NCBI RefSeq assembly: GCF_037975245.1
Contig: NC_092576.1
Coordinates: 44,087,611 to 44,151,610 of the forward strand
Source of the DNA: Apostichopus japonicus
Taxonomy: Eukaryota > Echinodermata > Holothuroidea > Aspidochirotida > Stichopodidae
Direction: 5' to 3'
Length of the DNA: 64,000 nt
Positions 4,081 through 55,879 of this stretch are shown piece by piece (position 1 is the stretch's first letter; each line of letters opens with the position of its first letter). Under the pieces are notes generated by a model. That model saw only the letters and a list, made by a program, of their open reading frames with translations. It did no database searches and was not told the origin of the DNA. The translations under genes were made by a program, and so were the position numbers.

Positions 4081-6102
4081 GTAAAGGTTTAATCCGCCCT
4101 TCTTGTTTCCATTCTAATACGGATCTACGTTTGACGGTTATTTTCTGCTGAACGAATAAATTGTTCAAGTCTGTTTCATGATCTATGAGTAGCCTAGGCT
4201 ACTTTTGGTGTGGTTATGGCTTACTTTTTTCTAAAGTGTGCGTTGCAGCTATAGATAGTGTATTGTGTAGCCTAACCCAAGTTAAGACTAGCCTATGTTG
4301 AGTTTCACTCGTTGGTTGTTATGCCTAACGTTGAAAATAGTTAATACTGCCCAAGAAAACTAAACCTAACATTTTAAATTCTCTTTATTTTACAGTCTGG
4401 TGGTAACGCACAGCCGAGCAAAACATGGGGTAAGTTGATTTTGCTCAGTGGTTCAGTTCTATCCTTCAGCTAGGCCTATGTATGTGATTTAGCCAATGGT
4501 TTTACCAAATTCCACCTAAATAGAAGGAAACCTGTAGTTCCAAAGGTTGGGAAATAAACTGCTTGGATGGAGGTTACTATAGGCTAGGCTTTTCTGTCAA
4601 ATGGTTGGAATATTCCATCCTAGAAACACCAGCATTATGGCCTATGGGACACTTTTATGAATGACTTCACCCCAAAACAAGCAGATACTATAAACTTGGG
4701 GAAATATTTTTTCTTGCCTCAAGCAGTTTTGACTACCAACCTGTAAGATTGCATTACTTCTAGGCATAAAAGTATGTACAGTAGGCTAGGCTCATTCTTT
4801 CTATTTCTGGCAGAATTTGATAAAACCATCGGTTAAACATCCTGTCTGAAGGTGGATGATAGATCTAGGCTATTAACAGTGTACACATCGGGAAGATTCT
4901 TCATTACCGAAGAACATTTGCTCTTAATATTCCCTCAGTACTAGGTTAATAAATCATCCTACTATGCTGTCTGGTAATATATGAAATGTTTACAGTTTGC
5001 ATCCTCTAAAAAAGCTAACCTTAATAGAGCAGTTGTTTTGTTTTAATTGGATTTGACGGTCATTCCAGGAACCCTTATATCAACATTGTTATGGTTGTTG
5101 CATTAATTGTATAGCGCCACCCAGAACTCAGGCAATCTGCCAGATCTCGAAATATCTTGTGACCCACCATTATCTTTGAAACTTTTGTATGAAATCATCC
5201 AGGAAGTAAATGTATAATTACACAGAATTTTGCCCTTGTGAGTGAAGGTGTGTCTTAATGTAAAGTTTCTTTTGTGAAAATTTGCATGACAGAGTTGAGC
5301 TTGTACGAGCTACACCGTACTCCGCAGGAAGCAATCACAGACGATACAGAGATAGCGGTGTCACCTCGAAGCCTTCACAGCGAGCTCATGTGTCCGATAT
5401 GTTTGGACATGCTGAAAATGACGTACACGACCAAGGAATGTCTTCACCGATTCTGTCAGGAATGTATCATCACAGCTCTTAGAAGTGGGTAAGGATCCGC
5501 TAAAAAAGCTGCCGTTAATGCACGGTGACATAAAAGAAAAATCAACGTCACAAAAGTTGATTAAATTGTTTATTTCAACTTTTAAGATGACAATCTTTAT
5601 AAACCACCCATTTTAGTCCATAGTCTAGTACAAATAATAACATTGTGCAGTACCCCTCAAAGGTTTTGGCTGATGAAAGAAGATCATGATTTGTTTGCTA
5701 GTTTGTTTGCCCAGGGGGGTGGCGGTGGGTGGTGGGGGTGGGGGGAGGTAGTATAAGTGTTTGGTCTTCATTTATTCGACTGTGGAAGGCGAAGATGGTG
5801 AATTCCCTCATTAAATGTGGGCTGAGTGAGTGGTGATTGCAATACCCCTTTATTCATCCAACTACCATGTGAATAACATGCTAGCCACTGGATGAATAGT
5901 CGTCAAACATTTGATAACTTTATCACATGCCATCCTTTAAATTTACTGTTGTTTAGATTAACCTTAATTGTCAGTTTGTTCCAAAACTATCAAAGAGAAA
6001 ATGAATGTTCTATCAAGACCGTCATCAACTAACCTGAATCCATTAATGAATGTAGAGAGCAAGTATTAAAAAGAGAATGGTGCTCAACATTTCCCCTGCC
6101 TC

Positions 6103-6143
<41 letters not shown>

Positions 6144-9100
6144 CTATTTAATATATACATGGAACTCCTAAAACAACAGGCTCCCCCAGTTACCCAATCC
6201 CGCACTAGGATATATCCACATGAAATGTTCTCATTTGTGAAGGACATATCTGAAAAAGGAAGGTTGTCCCTTCGTTCATGTGAATGCTGTTGCAATAGGA
6301 TACGTCCTTGCAATGAAGCCTTACTCATTTACAAGTTCAACAAAATGCGCTTTAATAATATCACAGGTGAGAGTGGATATATTCTTTGTATTGTATCACT
6401 ATATATATATAAGTCGTAAGTCGCAACTCTATAGATATATATCCACTAATTCTGGTGAATGGGTGTATCCTTTGCTTTCACTTTCTATAAGTTCACAAAC
6501 GAGAGCATTGTACACTGAGTTAACGATGTAGAAAATTTGAAAGGAACATCATCCGCAGTATTTGTGTGTTATGTGGTTGAATGTGTAATTGCATCATTTC
6601 AAAATGTACGTTGGTTAGCAATGCTGGTCAAGTTCATGTCTTTTATATCATCTGGGACCATCTTTTCCCCCGCCCCCCCCCCCCCCGAAATATTTAAAAA
6701 CAATGATTTTTTTCTGTGTTTGGTTCCCTTTGACAGAAACAAGGAATGTCCCACCTGTAGGAAGAAACTTGTGTCCAAGAGATCCTTGCGGCCAGATCCA
6801 AACTTTGATGCTCTTATCTCCAAAATCTACCCTAGCAGGGATGAGTATGAAGCCCACCAGGTAATGTATATATCCAAGTTTGTATGAAAGTTTAGCCAGA
6901 TTCTAATAATGCCCAAGGATGTATGTGAGGGCGATGTAGTCAAGTGGTTAAGGCAGTGGATTTGTGATCTAAGGGTTACAGGTTCGAGCCCTGGCCAGAT
7001 CATTACGTTCTGTCCTTGGGCAAGGCGCTTTGTCTCCATTGCCTCTCTTCACCCAGGTGTCTAAATGGGGACTTGCAAGGTAACTTGTTAATATAGTTGT
7101 TTGCGCCGGTTTGTGGCTGCACCCTATGGGAAGTCCTCCAGGGACACGTGGTTGTGGTGCAATGTGGTGCCCCAGGAGAGATTGATTGGATTGTGCACAC
7201 TTTGGTGTGTTGGTGTGACATGTTACCAATGACCAGGGTTAAGTTGTAAAGTCGTGTGAGAAGGCCTTGGCCCTGAAACAAGACTGTAAACCTGAAAATT
7301 AAAAATTAAATTAAAAATTATTTATTTTCATTCTCCACTTCAAAATTTGTCACTTACGAAAGACCTTTTCAAAGAGCTCTATGTTGCGAAATTTATATGT
7401 CGATGATAAATTTCTTTGCGAGCGGTATTCAGGCTACTTTTCTACCGGTGAATTGAGTTTTCTCTCTTGTCCGCAGGAAAGGGTTTTGGAGAAGTTGGCA
7501 AAGCACCATTCCACACAAGCCTTGGCTAATAGCATCGAAGAAGGGATGAAACAACAGGCTCTAAGCAGACAGCAAAGAGTAGTGAGTCACCCTAATTTAC
7601 CGAAGGGCAAGGAGGGGGGGGGCGTGGGATGTTTCTTTACAGAGGAGATAATAGTTATTGGGGGAGTGGGAAAGGGGAGAGGGGTTGGGATGTTTCTTTA
7701 CAGAGGAGATAATACTTATTGGGTGAGGGGGAGGGGGGTTGGGTGCTTGGTGAGTTTTGGTTGAATTTGGATATTATTTAAATTTCAATATTTACTTTAA
7801 CTTTTTAATTTGTCACTTATGCAGAAATATAATGAGCTACAATTTTTTTTAAAGTTTTCTAGCAACCTGTCCGTCAAAATGGTTGTTTGATGCAAGTTTT
7901 GTTCTTGTTCCATTCTCGGAGAATGTACTAAAATATCCTCTTTTTTTTTAATTTACCCCAAAAATGTTGAGAAATGTGGTGCAGTGGGAAACCTTTTCTT
8001 TCCTTGTTCTCTCAGAGAAAACACCACCCAGTAATGTCCGATCCAACCGAGGAGACAGCTGAAGCCATGGATGAACAACCACCAATTCCCTTACCAGTGC
8101 CTCCTGTCTCCGAAATACCCACAGGGCCCAGTGAGGTGGGACCCTCGAGGACAGAAGTGAAGAGACCCCCCCGAAATATCCCCGGTGAAGCAAGCAGTCC
8201 AGAGGTTGGACCCCACCTGGGGGAGCCATCAGAACCCCCGGAGGCCATGGAAATACCGAGTGTAAGATTAAACTGGATTAGTTCATCAAAATAAAACGAA
8301 ACTGTTAGCAAACTGCTTATCCACTAAAGAGCCTGTGTAAGAGAATGTGTAAAAGTAAGAGGGTGTGACGTTTCGAATGGCTGAATGATAAGTAACGGTA
8401 GCAGAAGGGACAAAAACACGCACAGAATACAGACAGGTTAATGAGCATGGTGAGCACGAAGAGATAGATGTAAGTGGATTAGTAGACAAGGGATGGAGAG
8501 AAGGAAGAAACCAACAGGAAAAAAAGGATAGGTAGAAGATAAACAGTGGGGGACAAAGAGAGGATTAAGGGAAGAGGGTAGGGAATAAACTGCAGAAGGA
8601 CAAAGACAGAAAATAGTGAAGAAAAAAGGGTGGGGAGATGGAAGATGATTAGTTCATCACAGAGCTCGAGTGATCCGATTGACACCAGCTTAGACTTTTG
8701 TGCAAGGTGCCTTTGTAACCCTCGGTCCTAATTCAAGTGGTTGTAAGACTGTGACATTGGAAAATGATATGACAACTAAAATGATGTGATGATATGATGA
8801 CTAAAAGATGACTAAAATATCAGTGAAATTATCTTTTACATGTGCAAAATGTATAAAAGGGATATAAGGAGAGAAATAATGCAGAAACTATTTCCATTAA
8901 AGATGTAAAATTGGGGTTAAACTTCCTTTATAAATGTCTCCCCCCCCCCCCAACCCACCGCTTCTTTGAATGACAGTCATTTTAACACATTTGAACCGTA
9001 AAAGTTTTCGCACCATTGTATTTTGTTATGTCTCCAGGAGGTTGAGCTTGTTTTCCGGCCTCATCCAGCTCAGACAGATACATCTCATCTCCCCGTGCGG

Positions 9101-10701
9101 TACCTGAAAACTCCGACCCATGCATGGATAGACCACCTTGCTAAATACCTAGCCATAAGGGCATCTCTTGAAGCCAACGGTGATTATAATCTACTTGTCG
9201 ATTCAGGAAAAGAAGTCTTTCCCTTTAACAGAGAACGGACAGTTTTCCTTCAAATATTGACAATTTTCCTACAGTTAGTGAATGAGCCCTTTATCTGATT
9301 CTAATGCTAGTACCACTCTATACTGTCTTCTCCTACCATGCTTCAAAGCACTGGTACTAACAGTATGGACAGTTCCTAACCTTTCTCGATTCTAATGCTA
9401 ATACCACTGTATACTGTTATCTCCTACCATGCTTCAAAGCACATGTACTGACAGTATGGACAGTTCCTAACATCTATCTGATTCTAATGCTAATACCACT
9501 CTATACTGTCCTCTCATATCATGCTTCAAAGCTCTCATAAAAACAGTATGGACAGTTCCTAACCTTTCTCGATTCTAATGCTAATACCACTCTATACTGT
9601 TATCGCCTACCATGCTTCAAAGCAGTCGTACTGACAGTATGAACAGTTCCTCACCTCTGATTGCAATGCTAATTCAACTCTATACTGTCCTCTCATATCA
9701 TGCTTCAGAGCACTTGTACTGACAGTATGAACACCTCTTGAGTTACTGTGACGTCATACTTTCCAACAGAACTCGTAAACCTAGGTAGCTTGTCAAACTT
9801 TGTTCAAGTCGGGCAGTTTTGTTGACTTTTCACCGGAGTAAAATATAGAGCGAGAAGGTTTTGTGTATGTCGTGGGAATTGGATGCAGAGATTTCTTAGA
9901 AACGGCGCAGCGTTTACTTGTTTGATGTTTATCATCCTCTTCACAGCCAACACCTCGTCAGCAAGTGGCAGCAGTCAGAAGTCTGTAGAGGGCAGTGCAG
10001 ACTTCAGTATCTCAGTGGCGACCCAAGGAGGGCAACTTGTGGTGAGTGAGATCTGTTATGTGTGAACTTGTGGCTTAATATCAGTGGAAATATATTGCTT
10101 CTCGGTTACTTATAATGCTTAAGGCAAAAAAAAGTTTCAAAAGTTGATAGAACTGAAATGAAGGGTGGGCAGGATGAGAGCAGGGAAAGTGTTTACTAGA
10201 ATATCAGTAGATTCTCTCTTATTTAAAATCCTGACCGAAAAATTAAAACATTGCGTGTTCGTGTTCTAATGGAGGTAAAGCCAAAAACCGTGGATGTAGG
10301 TACATAGAGAAATTTGGAAAGATTTAACCAGGTTAATAGATAATGGTTAAAATGGTTCCTTTGTCAAGCCACTTGCTACAAGATTCTGAACCGGAGGTGA
10401 AGTAACACTGACATCAGTGGTACTGTTTCTCGTTGTACTCAGAGCTGTGTTGCAATCACAGAGATTGGGGTGCTCCTCACACCAGGTTCCATGATGAGAA
10501 ATTCTTCTCTCCTAACCCTACATTTCCCTCCCACACCAAACCCTCCCCCTGTCTGTTCTTTATTCTTCTGTTCTCTGTAGTTTAATGATTATATCTGTTT
10601 CCTTGCAGGAACTCCCCGGTAACACAACCCTCGAACAGGTCAACGAAAACCACTGGAAAGTTGCCAAACCGTTGGAGTTGTTCTATCAGCCGAAACAATG
10701 A
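4066..10701 (+). CDS. RNF2: RNF2/RING1 ortholog, E3 ubiquitin ligase of Polycomb repressive complex 1 (9 coding exons)
   Basis: Catalytic subunit of PRC1, which monoubiquitinates histone H2A in the nucleus. Joined exons are 4066-4080, 4396-4429, 5293-5488, 6737-6860, 7477-7578, 8016-8261, 9038-9179, 9947-10041 and 10609-10701. Phases agree throughout and give 348 residues (human RNF2 has 336). The N-terminus has the family signature SKTWELSLYEL. The C3HC4 RING uses C50, C53, C66, H68, C71, C74, C86 and C89, all present. K96/R97 match the basic pair that contacts the nucleosome acidic patch in vertebrate proteins. Residues 158-239 are a Pro/Glu-rich linker unlike vertebrates. The RAWUL domain begins near residue 240 ([10 protein letters not shown]) and ends with [17 protein letters not shown]. 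The intron 5 donor (gtagtg) and intron 7 donor (gtgatt) are weak but are the only phase-compatible ones I found. The gene converges on VPS26. RNF2 versus RING1 naming is arbitrary in an invertebrate. Confidence 0.97.
4396..4429 (+). CDS. RNF2: RNF2 coding exon 2
   Basis: Acceptor tttacag and donor gtaagt. It encodes [11 protein letters not shown] plus the first base of the Glu codon completed in exon 3. Confidence 0.9.
5293..5488 (+). CDS. RNF2: RNF2 coding exon 3, first six RING zinc ligands
   Basis: Acceptor gacag and donor gtaagg. It covers residues 17-82 and holds C50, C53, C66, H68, C71 and C74. An ATG seven bases before the exon, inside the acceptor region, is not the start codon. Confidence 0.97.
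6103..6141. repeat. TA dinucleotide microsatellite
   Basis: A run of alternating T and A in RNF2 intron 3. A shorter TA-like stretch recurs near 6401-6411. Confidence 0.9.
6737..6860 (+). CDS. RNF2: RNF2 coding exon 4, last two RING ligands
   Basis: Acceptor ttgacag and donor gtaatg. It supplies C86 and C89, then [18 protein letters not shown] and [11 protein letters not shown], almost unchanged from vertebrates. Confidence 0.97.
6928..7318 (+). mobile_element. tRNA-derived SINE, full-length copy
   Basis: RNA polymerase III A box TAGTCAAGTGG (6937-6947) and B box GGTTCGAGCCC (6981-6991) form a tRNA-like head. The body contains CCTTGGGCAAGGCGCTTTGT and CACCCAGGTGTCTAAATGGG. The tail has GTTGTAAAGTCGTGTGAGAA and ends in AT-rich repeats. 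It lies in RNF2 intron 4 and matches a minus-strand copy at 12128-12467 along most of its length. Confidence 0.9.
7477..7578 (+). CDS. RNF2: RNF2 coding exon 5
   Basis: Acceptor gtccgcag. It encodes [20 protein letters not shown] and continues to LSRQQR, matching the vertebrate [20 protein letters not shown] region. The gtagtg donor is weak but keeps phase 0 with exon 6. Confidence 0.9.
7626..7724 (+). repeat. Two-copy direct repeat with an acceptor-like motif
   Basis: GGGATGTTTCTTTACAGAGG and its downstream bases occur at about 7626 and 7687 (61-bp spacing) within G-rich sequence in RNF2 intron 5, shortly after exon 5. Confidence 0.75.
8016..8261 (+). CDS. RNF2: RNF2 coding exon 6, proline-rich linker
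   Basis: Acceptor ctctcag and donor gtaaga. Its 82 codons are rich in Pro, Glu and Ser and lack sequence similarity to the vertebrate linker. Position, phase and open frame support it. Confidence 0.88.
8480..8665 (+). repeat. Purine-rich tract in RNF2 intron 6
   Basis: Strand-asymmetric sequence made mostly of A and G (gga/gaa/aag motifs), with few pyrimidines. No known element is recognised. Confidence 0.5.
9038..9179 (+). CDS. RNF2: RNF2 coding exon 7, RAWUL first half
   Basis: Acceptor tctccag. It encodes [10 protein letters not shown] then [20 protein letters not shown], the start of the RAWUL ubiquitin-like fold. The donor gtgatt is non-consensus, but position 9179 gives phase 1 as exon 8 requires. 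Confidence 0.9.
9297..9740 (+). repeat. Five-copy ~91-bp tandem repeat in RNF2 intron 7
   Basis: Units start with GATT at 9297, 9388, 9480, 9571 and 9659. Each holds TCTATACTGT, CATGCTTCAAAGC and CAGTATGGACAG; ATACTGTC and GACAGTAT-like segments are near-complementary, so each unit could fold. The same sequence recurs as an inverted pair at 29312-29690. Confidence 0.9.
9947..10041 (+). CDS. RNF2: RNF2 coding exon 8, RAWUL middle
   Basis: Acceptor cttcacag and donor gtgagt. A Ser-rich loop is followed by [13 protein letters not shown], equivalent to the vertebrate YTIYIATASGQFTVL strand pair. Confidence 0.9.
10609..10701 (+). CDS. RNF2: RNF2 terminal coding exon 9
   Basis: Acceptor ccttgcag. 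It encodes [20 protein letters not shown] and then [10 protein letters not shown] before TGA at 10699-10701, matching the conserved YWKVNKPMELYY end of the family. Confidence 0.96.
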   Translation, partial: ELPGNTTLEQVNENHWKVAKPLELFYQPKQ

Positions 10702-12127: not shown

Positions 12128-12467
12128 TAATTTATTATTATTTATTAACTTAATCTGGTCATTGGTAACTTATCACACCTACTGTACACACCAAAGTGTG
12201 CACAATTCAATCAATCTCTCCTGGGGCACAACAGTGCACCATAGCCACGTGTCCCCCGGGGGACTTCCCATAGGGTGCAGCCACAAACCGGCGCACGCAA
12301 CTTTATTTACAAGTTACCTCGCAAGTCCCCATTTATACACCTGGGTGAAGGGAGGCAATGGAGATAAAGTGCCTTGCCCAAGGACACAACGCAAAAATCC
12401 TGGCAGGACTCGAACCTGCAATCCTTAGATCACAAGTCCACTGCCTTAACCACTTTACCACAGCTTC
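12128..12467 (-). mobile_element. tRNA-derived SINE, minus-strand copy
   Basis: Reverse-complement copy of the 6928-7318 SINE. The B box (GGTTCGAGTCC on the minus strand) is at 12406-12416 and the A box (TGGTAAAGTGG) at 12450-12460. The CCTTGGGCAAGG and CACCCAGGTG body segments are shared. It lies between RNF2 and VPS26. Confidence 0.9.
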
Positions 12468-20000: not shown

Positions 20001-23000
20001 ACATGAGACAGGGTACCACACAACCCACTCACATCAGATTAAGTACCACACAACCCACTCACATGAGACAGAGTACCACACAAGCCACTCACATGAGACA
20101 GGGTACCACACAACCTACTCACATCAGATAAAGTACCACACAACCCACTTACATGAGACAGGGTACCACACAACCCACTCACATGAGACAGGGTACCACA
20201 CAACCCATTCACATGAGACAGAGTACCACACTACCCACTCACATGAGACAGGGTACCACACAACCCACTCACATCAGATTAAGTACCACACAAGCCACTC
20301 ACATCAGATTGAGTACTCCACAAGCCACTCACACAAGACTGGGTACCACACAACCCACTCACATGAGACAGGGTACCACACAACCCAGTCACATCAGAGG
20401 GAGTACTGCACAGAAAGACCCACTATCATTTACCCACTCATCACTAAGGACTGCAAACCACAGAGGTACAGCCATTATCATCAATCCATCTATGAATGCA
20501 TGGAAGTCTCATGTCAGACTAACTGTGTTATATCCGATTAAGATCAACTTGATTATCACATAACCCTCTCAAGTCAACGAGACAGACCAAAATATTTCAC
20601 CCGAGCTTCGTAGACCAAACTGGAGCTTTACAGATTTTCTATGTATGTTTCTCTGGTTGGTTGGATGAACAAGCAACTTACAGTTCATAGTTTCTTCCAA
20701 GGCTAATGGAAAGACTTACACTGAGCAAATAAGTCTGGCACCACATACAATCCCTGTGAATTCATGACTATTCTACTGGTTACTCACCCCGTACTGGTGC
20801 ACCATCCATGATTTCATACTTGGCAATGGTTTCATTCTCGTTGAAAGTATTGGGACCTGGCGAGACACCAAAGAAGCTTTTGTTTAACTTTAATATCAAG
20901 GATAGTATACGAATATTTTCTACCACAAGTTTCCTTCATGCTGCAGCAGAGGTTAACACCGTGTAGGAGGCAGGTAATAAGCAGGGATAAGATCGTAGGG
21001 GAAGCTATGGTCGAACACAACTAGAATGAGATCTGTCTCAAAAACAAGATATCATTATCTCTTTTCCCTCGGACATAGTCACCGATATAAATTCACAGAC
21101 ATAATTACATGAATGTTAGCAGCACATACATTCAAAAAGCCGGACATAGATATCTCAGTCTTTCATTATGACATGTCATTCCAGATCAGAATGGGCTGTT
21201 CAGGATACTGAACGTTATGATCATACTGCCACAAGATTCAGCCACTAGGGTTAATATCCATGTGATGAAGGTGCTGCAGTGCCAGGCTCGAAATCCTATT
21301 CATATATATATGTATATATATATATATGAATATAAATAATATATATATATATATATATATCAAATTTCATTTAACAGAGTCTGTTCAAAGTACCTCTTTC
21401 GAGATCTGGTTTGAGGAATCACAACTTTCCTTAATACTGTTTCCTTAACCTCTGGACATACAATCAGCGTTCATAGCCTAACGGTTAGGGTGTCAGCATA
21501 TAAAGAAGGAGGGCTGGGTTCAAATCCCGGGGGGAAGCTGGAAATTTTTTCACTGTTCTGGATTTTCCAACTCACTACAATTTCATATATAGATATATAT
21601 TCATATAAAACGTAATTGGAATCTGACTGTACTGTGAGAGTAGGCCACAGTTTCCCAGTTTGTAACAAAAAAACAGGCTGATAAACGTCTTTGGCCAGCA
21701 ACTTAAAAATGTCCCTTTTGGCCTTCCATGTAACGGCAGCTCTACTTACCAGATCCTGTTGTCTCTCTCTTTATGATGGCAAGCTCCATGTGTTTGATTT
21801 TAATTCTTACCAGCAAGAAATAGATTTTACCCACGATGACGTCCTTCAGGTGATATCTAGCAGGGAATCAGAGAAGATTTTTGTGAGAAAAATTCATCTT
21901 GGAATTATTTTCCCTGTGATATTTGATTGGTTATATAAGTACCCCTATTTCAATAGATTCTGTATCGATTCACATCCCCGAGTTTCTTCAGGTTCTTGTC
22001 ATGTTACTCAATCTGAATTTGAAGAAGCCTTTAAAATCACTGATCTCCGTGAGAACAGACCTCGCCTACAATTAAACAGTCTATCATAATCAAATGCGAC
22101 ATTGATAAAGCCCAACATGCCAACGACTATCTCAATTTAGCTTAAAGTTTGTACTGATTTACATTGACTTGTACGCTAACACCATATATAACAGCAAATC
22201 AACACCATTTATAACACCATCCCAAACTCTCTATGTAGGGAGTCTCTATTGACCAGACTCCATCTTAATGAATATTCAACAGGACTTACTATAACTTGCT
22301 GTACACTCAAATTCTCAAACTCTCTATGTAGGGAGTCTCTATTGACAAGATTCCATCTTAATGAATATTCAACAGGTCTTACTTTAACTTGCTGTACACT
22401 CCAATTCCCAAACTCTCTATGTAGGGAGTCTCTATTGACAAGACTCCATCATAATGAATATTTAACAGGACTTACTTTGACTTGCTGTACACTCAAATTC
22501 TCAACTCTCTATGAAGGGAGTCTCTATTGACAAGACTCCATCTTAATGAATATTCAACAGGACTTACTTTAACTTGCTGTACACAAAAATTCTCAAACTC
22601 TCTATGCAGGGAGTTTCTATTGACCAGACTCCATCTTAATGAATATTCAACAGGACTTACTTTGACTTGCTGTACACTCAAATTCTCAAACTCTCTATGT
22701 AGGGAGTCTCTATTGACAAGACTCCATCTTAATGAATATTCAACAGGACTTACTTTAACTTGCTGTACACTCCAATTCTCAAACTCTCTATGTAGTGAGT
22801 GTCTAATGACAAGACTCCATCTTAATGAATATTCAACAGGACTTACTTTAACTTGCTGTACACTCAAGTTCTAAAAGTCTCTATGTAGGGAGTCTCTATT
22901 GAGAAGACTTCATCTTATTGAATATTCAACAGGACTTACTTTAACTTGCTGTACACTCAAGTTCTCAAACTCTCTATGTAGGGAGTCTCTATTGAGAAGA

Positions 23001-26000
23001 CTTCATCTTATTGAATATTCAACAGGACTTACTTTGACTTGCTGTACACTCAAATTCTCAAACTCTCTATGTAGGGAGTCTCTATTGACAAGACTCCATC
23101 ATAATGACTATTCAACAGGACTTACTTTGACTTCCTGTACACTCCAATTCTCAAACTCTCTATGTAGGGAGTTTCTATTGACAAGACTCCATCTTAATGA
23201 ATATGCAACAAGACTTACTTTGACTTGTTGTATTCAAACTCTATATGGAGGCAATCCTCGATGCCAACCTCCATCTTGATGGATGAGTTTGTTTCTGGGT
23301 ACTGTGAGAGTGTGTGCACCAATATATCCATCTCTCTGGTAGTATCTGTCAATCGCTTGGTGATGATCACTCTCAAGAAATACCTTAAAACCAAAAAATA
23401 ACCAGGATTTCAAGTGGATACAACTGGCAATCGCCAGCTTAAAATTCTCTTCAATAAATCCGAAAAAAGAAAAGAAAAAAAAATTAAATTTGTAGAAACG
23501 CCAGTCGGCAACCAGTTACAGTGAAAACTTTGACATTGTGTAAAATTTTGTAAAGGTGTAAATTATATGTAGACATAAATTATTGTATCCAGCTTTCTGT
23601 GCAATGGGATGATGCAATTGGGCAAAGTCTGAAATTATTGCAGGTGATTTGTATCACAAGACAACTTAATGTACATTAACTTCCTAGTTGTGAAGGATTA
23701 ATACAAGATTCTGCAACTATTTATCATCTGAAAAGCTCCTCCTTAACTTAACTTCACATAACCTGTACAATATACAATTTTTAAGGTTTCTCACAATTCT
23801 GTATAAAATTAATAGCATTACATAAGTGCCATTAACCCCAGTGTAGGATTGATAAGGTTTCTCACTACTCTATATTAACCTTACCTAAGTACCTTAATTT
23901 CATGTTAACCCCAGTGTAGGATTGATAAGGTTTCTCACTATTCTATATTAACCTTACCTAAGTACCTTAATTTCACATTCATCCCAGTGTAGGATTGATA
24001 AAGTTTCTTGCAATTATAATCTTACTTAAGTACCTTCATTTCAAACATGCCTCTGTGTAGAATTCATGTAAGGCTTTTCAAACAGTTTATATTCTTACAA
24101 GCCCCTTCCTTCAACATTACTTCACATAAATTGTACCTTATAAGGAAAATCTTGAGAGCCTTCCCTTCCAGTACATTAAATTTCACATTAACCAATATGT
24201 AGGATTCATAAGGCTTCTCAAAATTCTGTATAATCTTAGTAGCCTAACCTACAGAAGTATCTTATAATCCTAATCTAAGGCTCTCCTTACCTTAACTTCA
24301 CATTAGCCCCAGTATAAGATTCATAAGGTTTCTCAACATTCATGAATTCAAAAGGGAAGCTTGTCGACTGTGTCAGCTATCCTTACCTTAACTTCACATT
24401 AGCCCCAGTATAGGATTCATAAGGTTTCTCAACGTTCATGAATTCAAAAGGGAAGCTTGTCGACTGTGTCAGCTCTCCTTACCTTAACTTCACATTAGCC
24501 CCAGTATAGGATTCATAAGGTTTCTCAACATTCATGAATTCAAAAGGGAAGCTTGTCGACTGTGTCAGCTCTCCTGGTCGAGCAAGCTCTTTGATGAGGG
24601 ATGTAAACTCATGATGATTGCCACGGTCATAATATAACTCTAGAGACAATAAAAAAAATTAAAAACAATATATATATATATATATGTATGTATGAAAAAA
24701 ATATATGGAAAGAAACATGTTAAAAAAAAAAAATTGGGGGCTAAATATATGATATTTTTTGTCAATGTGTGAAACATTATGTAACATGTCTAATGGTTTA
24801 CTTGAAAGAAAGAATACACACAGTAAATTATAAAATACTACACATGTACTGCAAAATCCATACTGCCAATGTAGCTATACAAATACAGTACAACCAGCAG
24901 CATTGCCATTTTAAAGGAAACCAATTTCACTTCCATCTGTGACAGTAAGGGGCTAAGTTGTAAAGTCGTGTGAGGAGGCGTTAGCCTCATACAAGACTGT
25001 AAACCTTCAACTTTAACTTTTTTAAAAGGACCAGACTTCCTACTTTATACTTCCCATTTAGTAAAGGATTGCCTCACCTATTTGCCCAACAAATTCTATA
25101 CGGATGCCTTGGTGTTCCAGCTTCTTGCCTTTGAGTGTCACATTAACCTATAAAAGAGAAAGCGGTTTAGTTTGTAACACACAGTTCTACAAATTGCACT
25201 GTAAGGCACCGCTACTAACTGAAAGACATGTTAGAACTGTAGATATATATATTACACAGGACATTAAGAAATCTTTCCACAAGTTGACAAGTGGATTACA
25301 AAACAACCTCATTCTGGGCTATCCAAATGATCTGAACAAGACTTGTTTACATATTCTGTACTGCAATTCAGTTGGAACCAATATCCTTACCTTACCAGCC
25401 CTTCCCCAAATTCCTCTGGGATCCCCCACCCTCAACCCCCCACCCTCAACCCCCCTCCCACCTATTTGTGGAACTTTGTGCAACATACTCTGGAATATGT
25501 CAAAGAAGTTTCCTAGTGTTTCTAAGGTATTATACCTTAGTGACTGCACTTTCACATAATTTCCGTTGCTCAGATTTTGCTCTGCGGCTATTGAAACAAT
25601 GTAAATTATGGTTATTATTTATTCTACAAATGTTTTGAGAAATTATATCTGATGTCATTTTGAGGTCAATCCATCACGCATGCACCACAGTGATGTTGAA
25701 AGTGTGTGTATTGACCTGACCATGTACTTCAGAAATGTGGTTACACACTCGGGTAGACACACAAATTTGTATGTCAATTGCTCCTTGTGAAAAGACATAG
25801 AAAAGGGCTGAGAAAGGGTGGGGGGAGGGGTGGGTTGGGGGAGGGAAGGGTGGCAACCCTCTACTTATTGCTGAGGTAATATATACTTGAAATAAGCTGT
25901 CATTTATACAGGATTGTTACACAAATATAATTCTACCTGGTTTCTCAGCTCTTTAAAGAGTCAATGTTCAAAGGACCATACATGTGCCACTTGTTACTGG

Positions 26001-38399: not shown

Positions 38400-41300
38400 T
38401 CTGGTCCTGTGTCCAATGCAAGATTAGGTACCCATTCTTGTGTCCATTGCAAGACTAGGTACTCACTCTTGTGTCCAGTCAAGACTAGGTACCTATTCTT
38501 GTGTCCAGTTCAAGTGTAGGTACTCATTCTTGTGTCCAGTGCAAGATTAGGTACCCATTCTTGTGTCCAGTTCAAGAGTAGGTACTCGTTCGTGTCCATT
38601 TCAAGACTAGGTACTCATCCTTGTGTCCAGTGCAAGACAAGGAGACAAGGTACCCATTCTTGTGTCCAGTGCAAGACTAGGTACTCATTCTAGTGTCCAG
38701 TGCAAGATTTGGTACACATTCTTGTGTCCAGTGCAATATTAGGTACCCATTCTTGTGTCCAGTGTAACATAAGGTACCCATTCTTCTGTCCAGTGCAAGA
38801 CTAGGTACTCATTCTTGTGTCCAGTTCAAGACTAGGTACTCATCCTCGTATCCAGTGAAAGACTAGGTACCCATTCTTGTGTCCAGTGCAAGACTAGGTA
38901 CTCATTCTTGTGTCCAGTGCAAGATTGGGTAGTTATTCTTGTATCCAGTGCAAGAGTAGGTACTCATTCTTGTGTCCAATGCAAGATTTGGTGCCCATTC
39001 TTGTGTCCAGTGCAAGACTAGGTACTCGTTCGTGTCAAATTCAAGACTAGGTACTCATCCTCGTGTACAGTGGAAGACTAGGTACTTATTCTTGTATCTA
39101 GTGAAAGACTAGGTACCCATTCTTGTGTCCAGTGCAAGACTAGGTACTCATTCTTGTGTCCAGTGCAAGATTGGGTACCCATTCTTGTGTCCAGTGCGAC
39201 ATAAGGTACCCATTCTTGTGTCCAGTGCAAAACTAGGTACTCATTCTTGTGTCCAGTTCAAGACTAGGTACCTATTCTTGTGTCCAGTGCAAGAGTAGGT
39301 ACTCATTCTTGTGTCCAATGCAAGATTAGGTGCCCATTCTTGTGTCCAGTGCAAGACTAGGAACTCGTTCGTGTCCAGTTCAAGACTAGGTACTCATCCT
39401 CGTGTCCAGTGGAAGACTAGGTACTCATTCTTGTATCCAGTGAAAGACTAGGTACCCATTCTTGTGTCCAGTGCAAGACTAGGTACTCATTCTTGTGTCC
39501 AGTGCAAGTTTGGGTACTCATTCTTGTGTCCAGTTCAAGAGTAGGTACTCTTTCTTGTGTCCAATGCAAGATTAGGTACCTATTCTTGTGTCCAGTGCAA
39601 GACTAGGTACTCATTCTTGTGTCCAGTTCAAGACTAGGTACCTATTCTTGTGTCCAGTGCAAGTGTAGGTACTCATTCTTGTGTCTAGTACTAGATAAGG
39701 TACCTATTCTTGTGTCCAGTGCAAGAGTAGGTACTCATTCTTGTGTCCAGTGCAAGATTGGGTACTCATTCTTGTGTCCAGTGCAAGAGAAGGTACTCAT
39801 TCTTGTGTCCAGTGCAAGATTAGGTACCCATTCTTGTGTCCAGTTCAAGACTAGGTACTCATTCTTGTGTCCAGTTCAAGACTAGGTACTCATCCTTGTG
39901 TCCAGTGCAAGACTAGGTACCCATTCTTGTGTACAGTGCAAGACTAGGTACCCATTCTTATGTCCAGTGCAAGACTAGGTACCCATTCTTGTGTCCAGTG
40001 CAAGTCTAGGTACTCATTCTTGTGTCCAGTGCAAGACTAGGTACCCATTCTTGTGTCCAGTGCAAGACTAGGTACCTATTCTTGTGTCCAGTGCAAGATT
40101 AGGTACCCATTTTTGTGTCCACTTCAAGACTAGGTACTTATCCCTGTGTCCAGTGGAAGGCTAGGTACCCATTCTTGTGTCCAGTGCAAGACTAGGTGCC
40201 CATTCTTGTGTCCAGTGCAAGACTAGGAACTTGTTCGTGTCCAGTTCAAGACTAGGGACTCATCCTCGTGTCCAGTGGAAGACTAGGTACTCATTCTTGT
40301 ATCCAGTGAAAGACTAGGTACCCATTCTTGTGTCCAGTGCAAGACTAGGTACTCATTCTTGTGTCCAGTACAAGATTAGGTACCTATTCTTGTGTCCAGT
40401 GCAAGAGTAGGTACTCGTTCGTGTTCAGTTCAAGACTAGGTACTCATCCTTGTGTCCAATGCAAGACAAGGTACCCGTTCTTGTGTCCAGTGCAAGACTA
40501 GGTACTCATTCTAGTGTCCAGTGCAAGACTAGGTACTCATTCTTGTGTCCAGTGCAAAACTAGGTACCTATTCTTGTGTCCAGTGCAAGTGTAGGTACTC
40601 ACATCTTGTATCCAGTGAAAGACTAGGTACCCATTCTTGTGTCCTGTGCAAGACTAGGTGCCCATTCTTGTGTCCAGTGCAAGACTAGGAACTCGTTCGT
40701 GTCCAGTGCAAGACTAGGTACTCATTCTTGTGTCCAGTTCAAGACTAGGTACCTATTCTTGTGTCCAGTGCAAGTGTAGGTACTCATTCTTGTGTCTAGT
40801 ACTAGATAAGGTACCTATTCTTGTGTCCAGTGCAAGAGTAGGTACTCATTCTTGTGTCCAGTGCAAGATTGGGTACTCATTCTTGTGTCCAGTGCAAGAG
40901 TAGGTACTCATTCTTGTGTCCAGTGCAAGATTAGGTACCCATTCTTGTGTCCAGTTCAAGACTAGGTACTCATTCTTGTGTCCAGTTCAAGACTAGGTAC
41001 TCATCCTTGTGTCCAGTGCAAGACTAGGTACCCATTCTTGTGTACAGTGCAAGACTAGGTACCCATTCTTATGTCCAGTGCAAGACTAGGTACCCATTCT
41101 TGTGTCCAGTGCAAGTCTAGGTACTCATTCTTGTGTCCAGTGCAAGACTAGGTACCCATTCTTGTGTCCAGTGCAAGACTAGGTACCTATTCTTGTGTCC
41201 AGTGCAAGATTAGGTACCCATTCTTGTGTCCACTTCAAGACTAGGTACTTATCCCTGTGTCCAGTGGAAGGCTAGGTACCCATTCTTGTGTCCAGTGCAA

Positions 41301-44300
41301 GACTAGGTGCCCATTCTTGTGTCCAGTGCAAGACTAGGAACTTGTTCGTGTCCAGTTCAAGACTAGGGACTCATCCTCGTGTCCAGTGGAAGACTAGGTA
41401 CTCATTCTTGTATCCAGTGAAAGACTAGGTACCCATTCTTGTGTCCAGTGCAAGACTAGGTACTCATTCTTGTGTCCAGTACAAGATTAGGTACCTATTC
41501 TTGTGTCCAGTGCAAGAGTAGGTACTCGTTCGTGTTCAGTTCAAGACTAGGTACTCATCCTTGTGTCCAATGCAAGACAAGGTACCCGTTCTTGTGTCCA
41601 GTGCAAGACTAGGTACTCATTCTAGTGTCCAGTGCAAGACTAGGTACTCATTCTTGTGTCCAGTGCAAAACTAGGTACCTATTCTTGTGTCCAGTGCAAG
41701 TGTAGGTACTCACATCTTGTATCCAGTGAAAGACTAGGTACCCATTCTTGTGTCCTGTGCAAGACTAGGTACTCATTCTTGTGTCCAGTGCAAGAGTAGG
41801 TACTCATTCTTGTGTCCAATGCAAGATTAGGTACCCATTCTTGTGTCCAGTTCAAGACTAGGTACTCATTCGTGTCCAGTTCAAGACTAGGTACTCATCC
41901 TTGTGTCCAGTGCAAGACTAGGTACCCATTCTTGTGTACAGTGCAAGACTAGGCACCCATTCTTATGTCCAGTGCAAGACTAGGTACCCATTCTTGTGTC
42001 CAGTTCAAGTCTAGGTACTCATTCTTGTGTCCAGTGCAAGACTAGGTACCCATTCTTGTGTCCAGTGGAAGACTAGGTACCTATTCTTGTGTCCAGTGCA
42101 AGATTAGGTACCCATTCTTGTGTCCAGTTCAAGACTAGGTATTTAACCCTGTGTCCAGTGGAAGGCTAGGTACCCATTCTTGTGTCCAGTGCAAGACTAG
42201 GTACTCATTCTTGTGTCCAGTGCAAGATTGGGTACTTATTCTTGTGTCCAGTGCAAGAGTAGGTACCCATTCTTGTGTCCAATGCAAGATTAGGTGCCCA
42301 TTCTTGTGTCCAGTGCAAGACTAGGAACTCGTTCGTGTCCAGTTAAAGACTAGGTACTCATCCTCGTGTCCAGTGGAAGACTAGGTACTCATTCTTGTAT
42401 CCAGTGAAAGACTAGGTACCCATTCTTGTGTCCATTGCAAGACTAGGTACTCATTCTTGTGACCAGTGCAAGTTTGGGTACCCATTCTTGTGTCCAGTGC
42501 AAGACTAGGTACTCATTTGTATCCAGTTCAAGATTAGGTACTCATCCTTGTGTCCAGTGCAAGATTAGGTACCCATTCTTGTGTCCAGTGCAAGACTAGG
42601 TACTCATTCTTGTATCCAGTGCAAGACTAGGTACCCATTCTTGTGTCCAGTGCAAGACTAGGTACCCATTCTTGTGTCCAGTGCAAGATTAGGTACCCAT
42701 TCTTGTGTCCAGTTAAAGACTAGGTACATATCCCTGTGTCCATTGCAAGGCTAGGTACCCATTCTTGTGTCCAGTGCAAGACTAGGTACTCATTCTTGTG
42801 TCCAGTGCAAGATTGGGTACTTATTCTTGTGTCCAGTGCAAGAGTAGGTACTCATTCTTGTGTCCAATGCAAGATTTGGTGCCCATTCTTGTGTCCAGTG
42901 CAAGACTAGGTACTCGTTCGTGTCCAATTCAAGACTAGGTACTCATCCTCGTGTCCAGTGGAAGACTAGGTACTTAATCTTGTATCTAGTGAAAGACTAG
43001 GTACCCATTCTTGTGTCCAGTGCAAGACTAGGTACTCATTCTTGTGTCCAGTGCAAGATTAGGTACCCATTCTTGTGTCCAGTGCAAGAGTAGGTACTCA
43101 TTCTTGTGTCCAGTTCAAGACTAGGTACTCATCCTTGTGTCCAGTGCAAGATTAGGTACCCATTCTTGTGTCCAATGCAAGATTAGGTGCCCATTCTTGT
43201 GTCCAGTGCAAGACTAGGTACCCATTCTTGTGTCCAGTGCAAGACTAGGTACTAATCCCTGTGTCCATTGGAAGGCTAGGTACCCATTTTTGTGTCCAGT
43301 GCAAGAGTAGGTACTCATTCTTGTGTCCAGTGCAAGATTGGGTACTTATTTTTGTGTCCAGTGCAAGAGTAGGTACTCATTCTTGTGTCCAATGCAAGAT
43401 TAGGTGCCCATTCTTGTGTCCAGTGCAAGACTAGGTACTCGTTCGTGTCCGATTCAAGACTAGGTACTCATCCTCGTGTCCAGTGGAAGACTAGGTACTT
43501 ATTCTTGTATCTAGTGAAAGACTAGGTACCCATTCATGTGTCCAGTGGAAGACTAGGTACTCATTCTTGTATCCAGTGAAAGACTAGGTACCCATTCTTG
43601 TGTCCAGTGCAAGACTAGGTACTTATTCTTGTGTCCAGTGCAAGTTTGGGTACTCATTCTTGTGTCCAGTTCAAGAGTAGGTACTCATTCTTGTGTCCAA
43701 TGCAACATAAGGTACCTATTCTTGTGTCCAGTGCAAGACTAGGTACTCATTCTTGTGTCCAGTTCAAGACTAGGTACCTATTCTTGTGTCCAGTGCAAGT
43801 GTAGGTAGTCATTCTTGTGTCTAGTGCTAGATAAGGTACCTATTGTGTCCAGTGGAAGAGTAGGTAGTCATTCTTGTATCCAGTGCAAGATTGGGTACTC
43901 ATTCTTGTGTCCAGTGCAAGAGTAGGTACTCATTCTTGTGACCAATACAAGATTAGGTACCCATTCTTGTGTCCAGTTCAAGACTAGGTACTCATCCTTG
44001 TGTCCAGTGCAAGATTAGGTACCCATTCTTGTGTCCAATGCAAGATTAGGTGCCCATTCCTGTGGCCAGTGCAAGACTAGGTACCCATTCTTGTGTCCAG
44101 TGCAAGACTAGGTACTTATCTCTGTGTCCATTGGAAGGCTAGGTACCCATTTTTGTGTCCAGTGCAAGAATAGGTACTCATTCTTGTGTCCAGTGCATGA
44201 TTGGGTACTTATTCTTGTGTCCAGTGCAAGACCAGGTACTCGTTCGTGTCCAATTCAAGATTAGGTACTCATCCTCGTGTCCAGTGGAAGACTAGGTACT

Positions 44301-47300
44301 TATTCTTGTATCCAGTGAAAGACTAGGTACCCATTCTTGTGTCCAGTGCAAGACTAGGTACTCATTTGTATCCAGTTCAAGACTAGGTACTCATCCTTGT
44401 GTCCAGTGCAAGATTAGGTACCCATTCTTGTGTCCAGTGCAAGACTAGGTACTCATTCTTGTATCCAGTGCAAGACTAGGTACCCATTCTTGTGTCCAGT
44501 GCAAAACTAGATACCTATTCTTGTGTCCAGTGCAAGTCTAGGTACTCATTCTTGTGTCCAATGAAAGACTAGGTACCCATTCTTGTGTCCAGTGGAAGAC
44601 TAGGTACCTATTCTTGTGTCCAGTGCAAGATAAGGTACCCATTCTTGTGTCCAGTTCAAGACTAGGTACTTATCCCTGTGTCCAGTGGAAGGCTAGGTAC
44701 CCATTCTTGTGTCCAGTGCAAGACTAGGTACTCATTCTTGTGTCCAGTGCAAGATTGGGTACTTATTCTTGTGTCCAGTGCAAGAGTAGGTAGTCATTCT
44801 TGTGTCCAATGCAAGATTAGGTGCCCATTCTTGTGTCCAGTGCAAGACTAGGAACTCGTTCGTGTCCAGTTCAAGACTAGGTACTCATCCTCGTGTCCAG
44901 TGGAAGACTAGGTTCTCATTCTTGTATCCAGTGAAAGACCAGGTACCCATTCTTGTGTCCAGTGCAAGACTAGGTACTCATTCTTGTGTCCAGTGGAAGT
45001 TTGGGTACTCATTGTGTCCAGTTCAAGAGTAGGTACTCATTCTTGTGTCCAATGCAAGATTAGGTACCTATTCTTGTGTCCAGTGCAAGACTAGGTACTC
45101 ATTCTTGTTTCCAGTGCAAGACTAGGTACCCATTCTTGTGTCCAGTGCAAGACTAGGTACCCATTCCTCTGTGCAGTGCAAGACTATGTACTCATTCTTG
45201 TGTCCAGTGCAAGACTAGGTACCCATTCTTGTGTACAGTGCAAGACTAGGTACTAATCCCTGTGTCCATTTGGGTACTCATTCTTGTGTCCAGTTCAAGA
45301 GTAGGTACTCATTCTTGTGTCCAATGCAACATAAGGTACCTATTCTTGTGTCCAGTGCAAGACTAGGTACTCATTCTTGTGTCCAGTTCAAGACTAGGTA
45401 CCTATACTTGTGTCCAGTGCAAGTGTAGGTAGTCATTCTTGTGTCTAGTGCTAGATAAGGTACCTATTGTGTCCAGTGCAAGAGTAGGTACTCATTCTTG
45501 TGTCCAGTGCAAGATTGGGTACTCATTCTTGTGTCCAGTGCAAGAGTAGGTACTCATTCTTGTGACCAATGCAAGATTAGGTACCCATTCTTGTGTCCAG
45601 TGCAAGACTAGGTACTCATTCTTGTGTCCAGTTCAAGACTAGGTACTCATCCTTGTATCCAGTGCAAGATTAGGTACCCATTCTTGTGTCCAATGCAAGA
45701 TTAGGTGCCCATTCTTGTGGCCAGTGCAAGACTAGGTACCCATTCTTGTGTCCAGTGCAAGACTAGGTACTTATCCCTGTGTCCATTGGAAGGCTAGGTA
45801 CCCATTTTTGTGTCCAGTGCAAGAATAGGTACTCATTCCTGTGTCCAGTGCATGATTGGGTACTTATTCTTGTGTCCAGTGCAAGAGTAGGTACTCATTC
45901 TTGTGTCCAATGCAAGATTAGGTGCCCATTCTTGTGTCCAGTGCAAGACTAGGTACTCGTTCGTGTCCAATTCAAGACTAGGTACTCATCCTCGTGTCCA
46001 GTGGAAGACTAGGTACTTATTCTTGTATCAGTGAAAGACTAGGTACCCATTCTTGTGTCCAGTGGAAGACTAGGTACTCATTCTTGTATCCAGTGAAAGA
46101 CTAGGTACCCATTCTTGTGTCCAGTGCAAGACTAGGTACTCATTTGTATCCAGTTCAAGACTAGGTACTCATCCTTGTGTCCAGTGCAAGATTAGGTACC
46201 CATTCTTGTGTCCAGTGCAAGACTAGGTACTCATTCTTGTATCCAGTGCAAGACTAGGTACCCATTCTTGTGTCCAGTGCAAAACTAGGTACCTATTCTT
46301 GTGTCCAGTGCAAGTCTAGGTACTCATTCTTGTGTCCAATGAAAGACTAGGTACCCATTCTTGTGTCCAGTGGAAGACTAGGTACCTATTCTTGTGTCCA
46401 GTGCAAGATAAGGTACCCATTCTTGTGTCCAGTTCAAGACTAGGTACTTATCCCTGTGTCCAGTGGAAGGCTAGGTACCCATTCTTGTGTCCAGTGCAAG
46501 ACTAGGTACTCATTCTTGTGTCCAGTGCAAGATTGGGTACTTATTCTTGTGTCCAGTGCAAGAGTAGGTACTCATTCTTGTGTCCAATGCAAGATTAGGT
46601 GCCCATACTTGTGTCCAGTACAAGACTAGGAACTCGTTCGTGTCCAGTTCAAGACTAGGTACTCATCCTCGTGTCCAGTGGAAGACTAGGTTCTCATTCT
46701 TGTATCCAGTGAAAGACTAGGTACCCATTCTTGTGTCCAGTGCAAGACTAGGTACTCATTCTTGTGTCCAGTGCAAGTTTGGATACTCATTCTTGTGTCC
46801 AGTTCAAGAGTAGGTACTCATTCTTGTGTCCAATGCAAGATTAGGTACCTATTCTTGTGTCCAGTGCAAGACTAGGTACTCATTCTTGTGTCCAGTTCAA
46901 GACTAGGTACCTATTCTTGTGTCCAGTGCAAGTGTAGGTACTCATTCTTGTGTCTAGTGCTAGATAAGGTACCTATTCTAGTGTCCAGTGCAAGACTAGG
47001 TACTCATTCTTGTGTCCAGTTCAAGACTAGGTACCTATTCTTGTGTCCAGTGCAAGTGTAGGTACTCACATCTTGTATCCAGTAAAAGACTATGTACCCA
47101 TTCTTGTGTCCTGTGCAAGACTAGGTACTCATTCTTGTGTCCAGTGCAAGATTGGGTACTCATTCTTGTGTCCAGTGCAAGCGTAGGGTACTCATTCTTG
47201 TGTCCAATGGAAGATTAGGTACCCATTCTTGTGTCCAGTGCAAGAGTAGGTACTCATTCGTGTCCAGTTCAAGACTAGGTACTCATCCTTGTGTCCAGTG

Positions 47301-55356: not shown

Positions 55357-55873
55357 AAATGCCTTACTCTTTGGTTTACCACAATCTCAGCTCTCCCGAC
55401 TTCAACGTCTTCAGAATACTGCAGCTAGAGTTGTAACTTTGTCAAGAAAATCATCTTATATAACACCTATACTACGAGATCTACACTGGCTACCTATTTC
55501 TTATAGGATTATCTACAAAATTCTCCTCATTGTTTTTAAATCACTTAATAACATGGCTCCTATGTATGTTTCAGAATTACTCCAATTGTACTCTCCATCA
55601 CGGAATCTTCGTTCAAGCAGCACGCTTAACCTCCAGGAACACAGGTCTAAACATTTGTGGGGTGACAGGTCTTTCAGGGTTGCCGCCCCACGCCTTTGGA
55701 ACACTTTACCATATGAACTGAAGTCATGCACCAGTATTGCAGCTTTCAAGAAACACCTTAAAACTCACCTTATGCGTGAAGCTTTCCAGTAGTTCTATTT
55801 GACTTTTTTCCATGTTGCGCCTTGAGCACCCTGTAGGGTGGATATGTGCGCATTATAAATCTCTGTTATTATT
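55357..55873 (+). mobile_element. 5'-truncated non-LTR retrotransposon (LINE) inside the satellite
   Basis: The reading frame encodes the C-terminus of a LINE reverse-transcriptase protein: LQRLQNTAARVV, ITPILRDLHWLPISYRIIYK, the APMYVSELL motif, WGDRSFRVAAPRLWNTLP and a stop at 55790-55792. A short 3'UTR ends in TTATTATTATT, the simple-repeat tail of CR1/L2-type elements. ATTAGG at 55351-55356 and 55874-55879 flanks it as a target-site duplication; the empty site ATTAGGTACTCATTCG is seen elsewhere in the array. Heavy 5' truncation, so inactive. Confidence 0.92.
55439..55792 (+). pseudogene. LINE reverse-transcriptase C-terminal fragment
   Basis: An open frame with an internal ATG that covers the post-RT C-terminal region only. 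Endonuclease and catalytic RT blocks are missing. The frame extends upstream to the insertion point. Confidence 0.85.
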
Positions 55874-55879
55874 ATTAGG

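Follow-up and report, generated by a model that had tools for sequence, protein, structure and literature searches.

Most of intron 5 of the retromer gene VPS26 in this part of the Apostichopus japonicus genome is, judging from its sequence, made up of tandem copies of the end of exon 5 together with the exon's donor and the start of the intron. Arrays of this sort are unusual but have been reported before, and they are present at other genes of this genome too. With a probability of about 0.85, the VPS26 array belongs to the exon-intron-boundary minisatellites called 'mirages' in amphioxus and arose by general local tandem amplification, not by a process directed at the boundary. The window denotes the whole 64,000-nt stretch of DNA analysed, and all VPS26 features given below lie on its minus strand.

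VPS26 exons were located by tblastn, using a human VPS26A sequence as the query. The resulting 318-aa translation matched Pfam PF03643 at 1.8e-137. Exon 5 (23219..23383, 165 nt), defined by tblastn and the exon model, codes for LRYFLRV...EFEYNKSK. In the exon model it is followed by the authentic donor, whose first six intron bases, GTAAGT, occupy 23213..23218. Intron 5 extends from 23218 to 21857 and comprises 1362 nt. TRF placed the array at 22223-23232, with a period of 93, 10.9 copies and 93% matches. At about 1.0 kb, the array takes up the greater part of the 1.36-kb intron, in line with the first-pass annotation. In the remainder, reaching to the exon 6 acceptor (21857..22222), the best exon-copy score was 13.5, which is within chance; a candidate older copy of exon 5 beyond the array (22187-22156, score 13.5) was rejected on the same ground.

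The source of the array was the last ~62 nt of exon 5. Donor-anchored alignment resolved ten full units (22270..23198), nine of 93 nt and one of 92 nt. Each consisted of a copy of the exon 5 tail, an insertion of ~10 nt, the donor and ~20 intron bases. A partial terminal unit (22223..22269) stopped after GAGAGTTTG, before any donor. Aligned with exon 5 in 81-82 gap-free columns, full units showed 73-80.5% identity, about 77% overall, compared with a mean of 93% (range 88-99%) among themselves. The insertion was common to the full units and absent from exon 5. Amplification of an altered copy, as previously proposed with an insertion of ~12 nt, was borne out by these values.

The exon 5 tail scored 31.5 against the array, whereas 500 dinucleotide shuffles of the array gave a mean of 11.6 and a maximum of 19.5. 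The proposed alignment with exon end, donor and intron start, in that order, thus stood up to the shuffled controls named for it. Taken without the donor bases, the exon part scored 24.5 against a shuffle maximum of 23.5, a narrow margin. No score above 13.5 was found in 1-kb bins of the window on both strands outside the exon and the array. Wide occurrence of the same satellite away from VPS26 had been named as evidence against an exon origin; a genome search with the 93-bp array sequence, which skips very common words, found it in one place only. The direction of copying was read from coding content. Exon 5 encodes conserved VPS26 residues, and of the 11 differences shared by half of the units or more, 7 were non-synonymous. 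Differences between units and exon affected 19/219, 60/219 and 46/210 cells at codon positions 1, 2 and 3, with no concentration at the third position. The array was therefore derived from the exon and not the reverse.

A table of the seven exon tails against the seven introns, in which three exon ends were one base short of the final exon model, gave high values for exon 5 with intron 5 (49) and exon 4 with intron 4 (186). The other 47 cells were at or below 26, and exon-derived copies in other VPS26 introns were accordingly rejected. When exon starts were compared with introns, the one high value was that for exon 4 with intron 4 (107), explained by the overlap between the tail of this 157-base exon and its first 120 bases. 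At RING2, in the same window, none of 12 edges showed exon-derived copies. Among inverted repeats around exons 2-7, the longest 25 of 65 pairs were nearly all AT runs and none framed the arrays. Tandem repeats with a period of 10 or more (TRF) covered 40% of the window. An Rfam scan of the window gave one tRNA-like match, and ARAGORN, run with the bacterial code, found no tRNA.

Intron 4 consisted mostly of copies of the tail of exon 4 (24483..24639, 157 nt; tblastn and exon model), in two age classes. Two near-exact tandem copies of the exon end with its donor (24283..24474, 98-99%, period 96) adjoined the exon. Seven older copies of the tail lay farther off (23665..24231, 78-87% in aligned bases) and included a stretch with a 73-bp period at 23830-24008. 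The best older copy scored 38, against maxima of 18 in 500 shuffles of the intron and 21 in 500 shuffles of the exon; the two weakest, with scores of 22 and 17.5, were near or within the shuffle range. Microhomology was present at the duplication: AGGAGAGC occurs 93 nt before the end of exon 4 and recurs 3 nt inside the intron, a spacing that gives the 96-bp period. Taken alone, the two 98-99% copies could be a mis-assembly. The position of the youngest copies next to exon 4 also fits a boundary-seeded process.

Exon edges of one domain family, WD40, were surveyed in the same genome. The sample comprised 72 of the 150 WD40 matches listed, the other 78 lacking letters or flank, and its edges were predicted, not annotated. 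Tandem copies of exon ends were found at 6 of 127 distinct edges, on donor and acceptor sides, a rate that rests on six positives including one weak one (L064, score 22). Donor-side arrays were L051 (72-bp x 54), L023 (35-bp x 41) and L048 (100-bp x 5); acceptor-side arrays were L029 (73-bp x 21) and L050 (179-bp x 2.9). These TRF copy numbers count the exon copy itself whenever it forms part of the array. One exon was followed by 53 more copies of its own end, and GTGAGT was kept in 43 of the 53. Several candidates were rejected as exon-derived: L010 and L046 were low-complexity matches, L024 reflected paralogy between WD40 repeats and L014 was a weak upstream match (score 19). Arrays L028 and L042 started at the donor and had only about 5 exon bases in common. 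The first-pass annotation had described the VPS26 process as repeated and locus-specific. Intron 4, with its exon-4-tail copies, upholds the first part; the second was abandoned, since comparable arrays of other exons occur at the surveyed edges.

Local tandem copies were also detected with 44 of 698 noncoding probes, which fall in 11 of 39 loci so that neighbouring probes are not independent, and in none of 72 exon interiors. Edges did not differ from noncoding probes (Fisher p 0.69; locus bootstrap of the difference -0.067 to +0.034), and the strictest threshold left 5/127 against 42/698. Interiors differed from noncoding probes (p 0.028); edges compared with interiors alone did not reach significance (p 0.089). 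These values bear on the alternative that a boundary-directed process, for example R-loops, pausing or repair at splice sites, seeds the copies, so that introns grow outward from the exon end. Two consecutive VPS26 introns made from the end of their own exon would be expected from it, as would the order of newest to oldest copies in intron 4 and the start of the L051 array, with its about 54 copies, at the exon edge. We consider it unlikely, given that the sampled edges were not enriched over noncoding probes, acceptor edges were affected too and the RING2 edges in the same window were free of copies. Moreover, similarity to the exon did not fall with distance in the three long arrays, with rho values of -0.03 for L051, 0.06 for L023 and 0.09 for L029.

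Within the VPS26 array, GTAAG[T/A] was counted eleven times. The first-pass annotation had counted 11 decoy donors, but one of these is the authentic donor at 23218, leaving ten decoys (22284..23125), nine with GTAAGT and one with GTAAGA. Their first bases are at 23125, 23032, 22939, 22846, 22753, 22660, 22567, 22475, 22382 (GTAAGA) and 22289. GT was kept in all ten full units. Predicted U1 pairing was -5.6 kcal/mol for the true donor and the same for nine of ten decoys; the GTAAGA decoy had -4.5 kcal/mol. Read-through of the donor of exon 4 or exon 5 gives a stop as the next codon. The exon-proximal donor is most likely the one used in splicing. Use of a decoy would lead to an immediate stop codon, for which reason such transcripts are probably degraded. 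A functional reading, in which the equal donors tune VPS26 output through U1 snRNP titration or through stop-containing transcripts, could draw on the matching pairing energies, the shared hexamer and the immediate stop. It is nevertheless very improbable. Donor bases were changed in 1 of 60 positions, compared with 36 of 870 elsewhere in the units (p 0.51), so their erosion and their conservation were no greater than in the rest of the unit, selection on the decoys was rejected, and no constraint was seen; similar arrays also lie beside unrelated WD40 exons. The array is probably neutral and without function. Least probable of all is that the array is a satellite of other origin with a chance likeness to exon 5, or a product of assembly error: satellites are common in this repeat-rich window and the exon part alone exceeded the shuffles only narrowly, but the ordered match with exon, donor and intron start exceeded 500 shuffles, was limited to the adjacent intron and had a single genomic place, and the diverged units are unlike the product of a false assembly duplication.

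Under general local amplification, the array would have begun with a tandem duplication of a segment that reached from the end of exon 5 across the donor into intron 5, the step that is visible in the sequence itself. The intronic copy, free of coding constraint, would then have drifted and gained the ~10-nt insertion, as the pattern of differences suggests. Expansion of this altered copy may have produced the present set of about 11 units, with unequal exchange or slippage keeping them alike; that the exon itself took no part is suggested by the 93% identity among units against about 77% to the exon. At VPS26 exon 5 homogenisation clearly spared the exon copy, but this is not a rule: at L051 and L029 the exon copies are as similar to the units as these are to each other. 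The two age classes of copies in intron 4 suggest that similar events took place there at least twice. The survey points to amplification aimed neither at VPS26 nor at splice sites and frequent in the sampled parts of the genome. Arrays would survive at exon edges, where they may be tolerated because the authentic splice site stays adjoining the exon, and would be removed by selection inside exons.

In two amphioxus reports (PMC3087553, PMC3902484), 'mirages' are exon-intron-boundary minisatellites proposed as a source from which new introns can arise, and haplotypes of the globin BflGb6 carry 6 and 3 mirage copies. The present arrays share with mirages tandem units spanning the boundary, copied splice signals on the donor or acceptor side, occurrence in ordinary genes and concerted evolution among units; the VPS26 array also has an exon end unit that escapes homogenisation. 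Differences are the host, here an echinoderm instead of a cephalochordate, which is not a defining mirage feature, copy numbers of up to about 54 compared with those of BflGb6, the involvement of two consecutive introns of one gene and the comparison with background tandem repeats in an exon sample. An echinoderm host is also indicated by the order of the mitochondrial genes and by a mitochondrial code in which AAA stands for Asn. For human segmental-duplication genes (PMC2812944), internal tandem repeats at exon-intron boundaries are reported with novel introns and alternative splicing. Boundary minisatellite expansion likewise alters gene structure here, although the VPS26 repeats sit inside an existing intron. 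A review (PMC3443670) describes how introns are gained when exon segments bearing AGGT undergo tandem genomic duplication. This resembles the present case in duplicating exon sequence and splice signals in tandem; there a new intron is made, whereas the VPS26 intron appears to be an existing one that was lengthened. A literature search by title, with thin coverage of subscription papers, gave among the matches listed no report of such arrays in echinoderms and no count of boundary arrays across exon edges outside amphioxus.

Altogether, the results suggest that no special boundary mechanism is needed and that ordinary tandem amplification with selection against hits inside exons is enough. The chances are about even that boundary arrays form a regular, genome-wide route to longer introns in this animal, in which the exon end with its splice signal is copied, up to dozens of times, at about 5% of exon edges, leaving many genes with strings of equal-strength decoy splice sites. 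If so, the spliceosome must ignore such decoys, and nature would have set up a test of how the proximal splice site is chosen and of whether exon copies give rise to introns. Mirages at several genes in another deuterostome phylum offer a natural experiment on the choice among many equal 5' splice sites.

The window lies at C16:44,087,611-44,151,610 of an assembly of 671.6 Mb in 35 contigs and includes a minus-strand VPS26 gene. For its exons 2-9, models were built on tblastn matches to human VPS26A and on GT-AG boundaries; their numbering presupposes an ATG-bearing first exon upstream. Joined, they encoded 318 aa matching Pfam Vps26 (PF03643; E 1.8e-137) as well as solved VPS26A/B chains. Exon 5 (23383-23219), which codes for conserved VPS26 residues, was followed by a tandem array detected by TRF at 22223-23232 (period 93, 10.9 copies). 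Anchored on the donor, the array comprised 10 full units at 23198-22270 plus 1 partial unit. On the minus strand, each full unit resembled the terminal ~62 bases of exon 5, followed by GTAAGT (GTAAGA once) and by ~20 bases similar to the beginning of intron 5. The exon 5 tail scored 31.5 against the array, with a maximum of 19.5 among 500 shuffles; without the donor bases, the score of 24.5 was narrowly above the shuffle maximum of 23.5. In 1-kb bins covering both strands of the window outside exon 5 and the array, the exon-tail score never exceeded 13.5. Among 49 exon-tail/intron pairings, only the adjacent pairs exon 5/intron 5 and exon 4/intron 4 stood out. The ordered match thus bore out the first-pass annotation, which had derived the unit from the exon 5 end, its donor and the intron start. 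Wide occurrence of the satellite away from VPS26, which that annotation would have taken as a refutation, was not seen, the array sequence being found at a single place in a genome-wide search that skipped very common words. The 11 decoy 5' splice sites proposed there do exist as tandem decoys, but number 10, because 23218 is the authentic donor.

An insertion of ~10 nt was common to the units and absent from exon 5. Units were 93% identical to each other on average and 73-80.5% identical to exon 5 (81-82 gap-free columns). As already suggested in that annotation, this closer mutual similarity points to the probable amplification of a single altered copy within the intron. Exon-unit differences affected 19/219, 60/219 and 46/210 cells at codon positions 1, 2 and 3, without concentration at the third, and 7 of the 11 differences present in at least half of the units were non-synonymous, a pattern that drift of the units as non-coding sequence would produce.

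The neighbouring intron 4 was likewise largely made from the end of the preceding exon, in agreement with the earlier claim. Exon-4-derived copies of two generations filled most of it (23665-24482, minus strand). Two young 96-bp copies were 98-99% identical to the exon 4 end including the donor, and seven older copies (78-87%) extended to 23665. The best older copy scored 38, compared with maxima of 18 and 21 in 500 intron and 500 exon shuffles; the two weakest, at 22 and 17.5, were near or inside the shuffle range. To judge from these similarities, intron 4 appears to show the same process at two ages. Eight bases of microhomology, AGGAGAGC, spaced 96 bases apart, were present at the ends of the young duplication and fit an origin by slippage or microhomology-mediated repair. 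These two young copies may represent a polymorphism or an artefact of the assembly. Both intron 4 splice sites carried AAGGTA (AAG|GTAAGG and AAG|GTATTT; 23378-23389 and 24477-24485), which would fit a tandem-duplication origin and is also near the splice consensus.

Elsewhere in the window, a 31-bp-unit array detected by TRF spanned 19 kb (38408-57484). It was interrupted near 55357-55875 by a segment with an open frame (55439-55792), which resembles the end of a LINE reverse transcriptase. A RING2 (RNF2-like) gene on the plus strand (5292-10692) was represented by five exons that tblastn located with the human protein as query and an additional exon at ~8014-8268 inferred from an open frame. 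The intron after its exon 9038-9172 held a 91-bp array without match to RING2 exons. A tRNA-like Rfam match at 12395-12467 (minus strand; 35.4 bits, gathering 29) had no counterpart in an ARAGORN scan under the bacterial code and may belong to a repeat. Five COX1 fragments, perhaps nuclear mitochondrial copies, were present at C29:14745-31219, besides the mitogenome C35. A 16,099-bp contig carrying COX1 had, by its tRNA positions and long frames, the gene order of echinoids and holothuroids, and its COX1 started with the expected motif (TNHKDIGTLY) only when AAA was translated as Asn, following the echinoderm code; the host is accordingly an echinoderm.

The decoy donor bases of intron 5 mutated as freely as other positions of the units (1/60 vs 36/870 changed). 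Predicted U1 pairing of 9 of the 10 decoys equalled that of the true donor, which, if used, would therefore be chosen by position or exon context. Read-through past the donor of either exon 4 or exon 5 would meet a stop at the next codon, and we infer that the decoys are silent. The intron 5 array has the structural features of the exon-intron-boundary minisatellites of amphioxus known as mirages. For these, Adh3 data and globin RT-PCR suggested undisturbed regular splicing, and an intron-gain model was put forward (PMC3087553); PGBD5 and troponin C are further amphioxus cases (PMC3902484). No echinoderm case was among the titles listed by the literature searches, which covered a minority of subscription papers. 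As far as these searches show, novelty lies in the phylum, in how large some arrays are, in the involvement of two neighbouring introns and in the comparison against background.

Other exon edges were surveyed at 72 of 150 listed WD40 exon matches, each flanked by 600 bases or more on either side, using 62-base probes spanning each distinct edge as predicted, not annotated. Copies were present at 4/61 donor edges (L023, L048, L051 and, weakly, L064) and 2/66 acceptor edges (L029, L050). In L051 (C9:5796512-5806511, minus strand), the exon was followed by 53 scored 72-bp copies of its own end with a GTGAGT-type donor, over 3.9 kb (TRF: 54 copies, exon copy counted), with GTGAGT kept in 43 of the 53. 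L023 held 41 copies of 35 bp by TRF, running to the locus end. The TRF array of L029 (around C14:16091289; ~21 copies of 73 bp to the locus end) lay upstream of the true acceptor, each unit including a pyrimidine tract, AG and ~26 exon bases. In L042 (C3:30306902-30316901, minus strand), an array started at the predicted donor, the exon's own site reading CAAAG|GC and the copies CAAAG|GT, possibly a GC donor beside GT decoys. Comparable copies at 6/127 edges elsewhere in the genome contradict the view of the process as locus-specific. None occurred at the 12 edges of RING2, the other modelled gene of the window, or in the 72 WD40 exon interiors. Of the noncoding probes, placed 350 bases or more away from the reading frame, 44/698 had copies, spread over 11 of 39 loci, and edges did not differ detectably from them (bootstrap -0.067 to +0.034; Fisher p 0.69; strictest threshold 5/127 vs 42/698). 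Interiors were below noncoding probes (p 0.028); edges against interiors alone gave p 0.089. A process directed at exon boundaries would agree with the youngest intron 4 copies adjoining exon 4, and the survey yielded only six positives. However, sampled edges were not enriched, acceptors were struck as well as donors, and similarity to the exon did not fall with distance in L051 (rho -0.03), L023 (0.06) or L029 (0.09). These observations favour tandem amplification as a general process, from which selection protects the interiors of exons, over one aimed at their boundaries.
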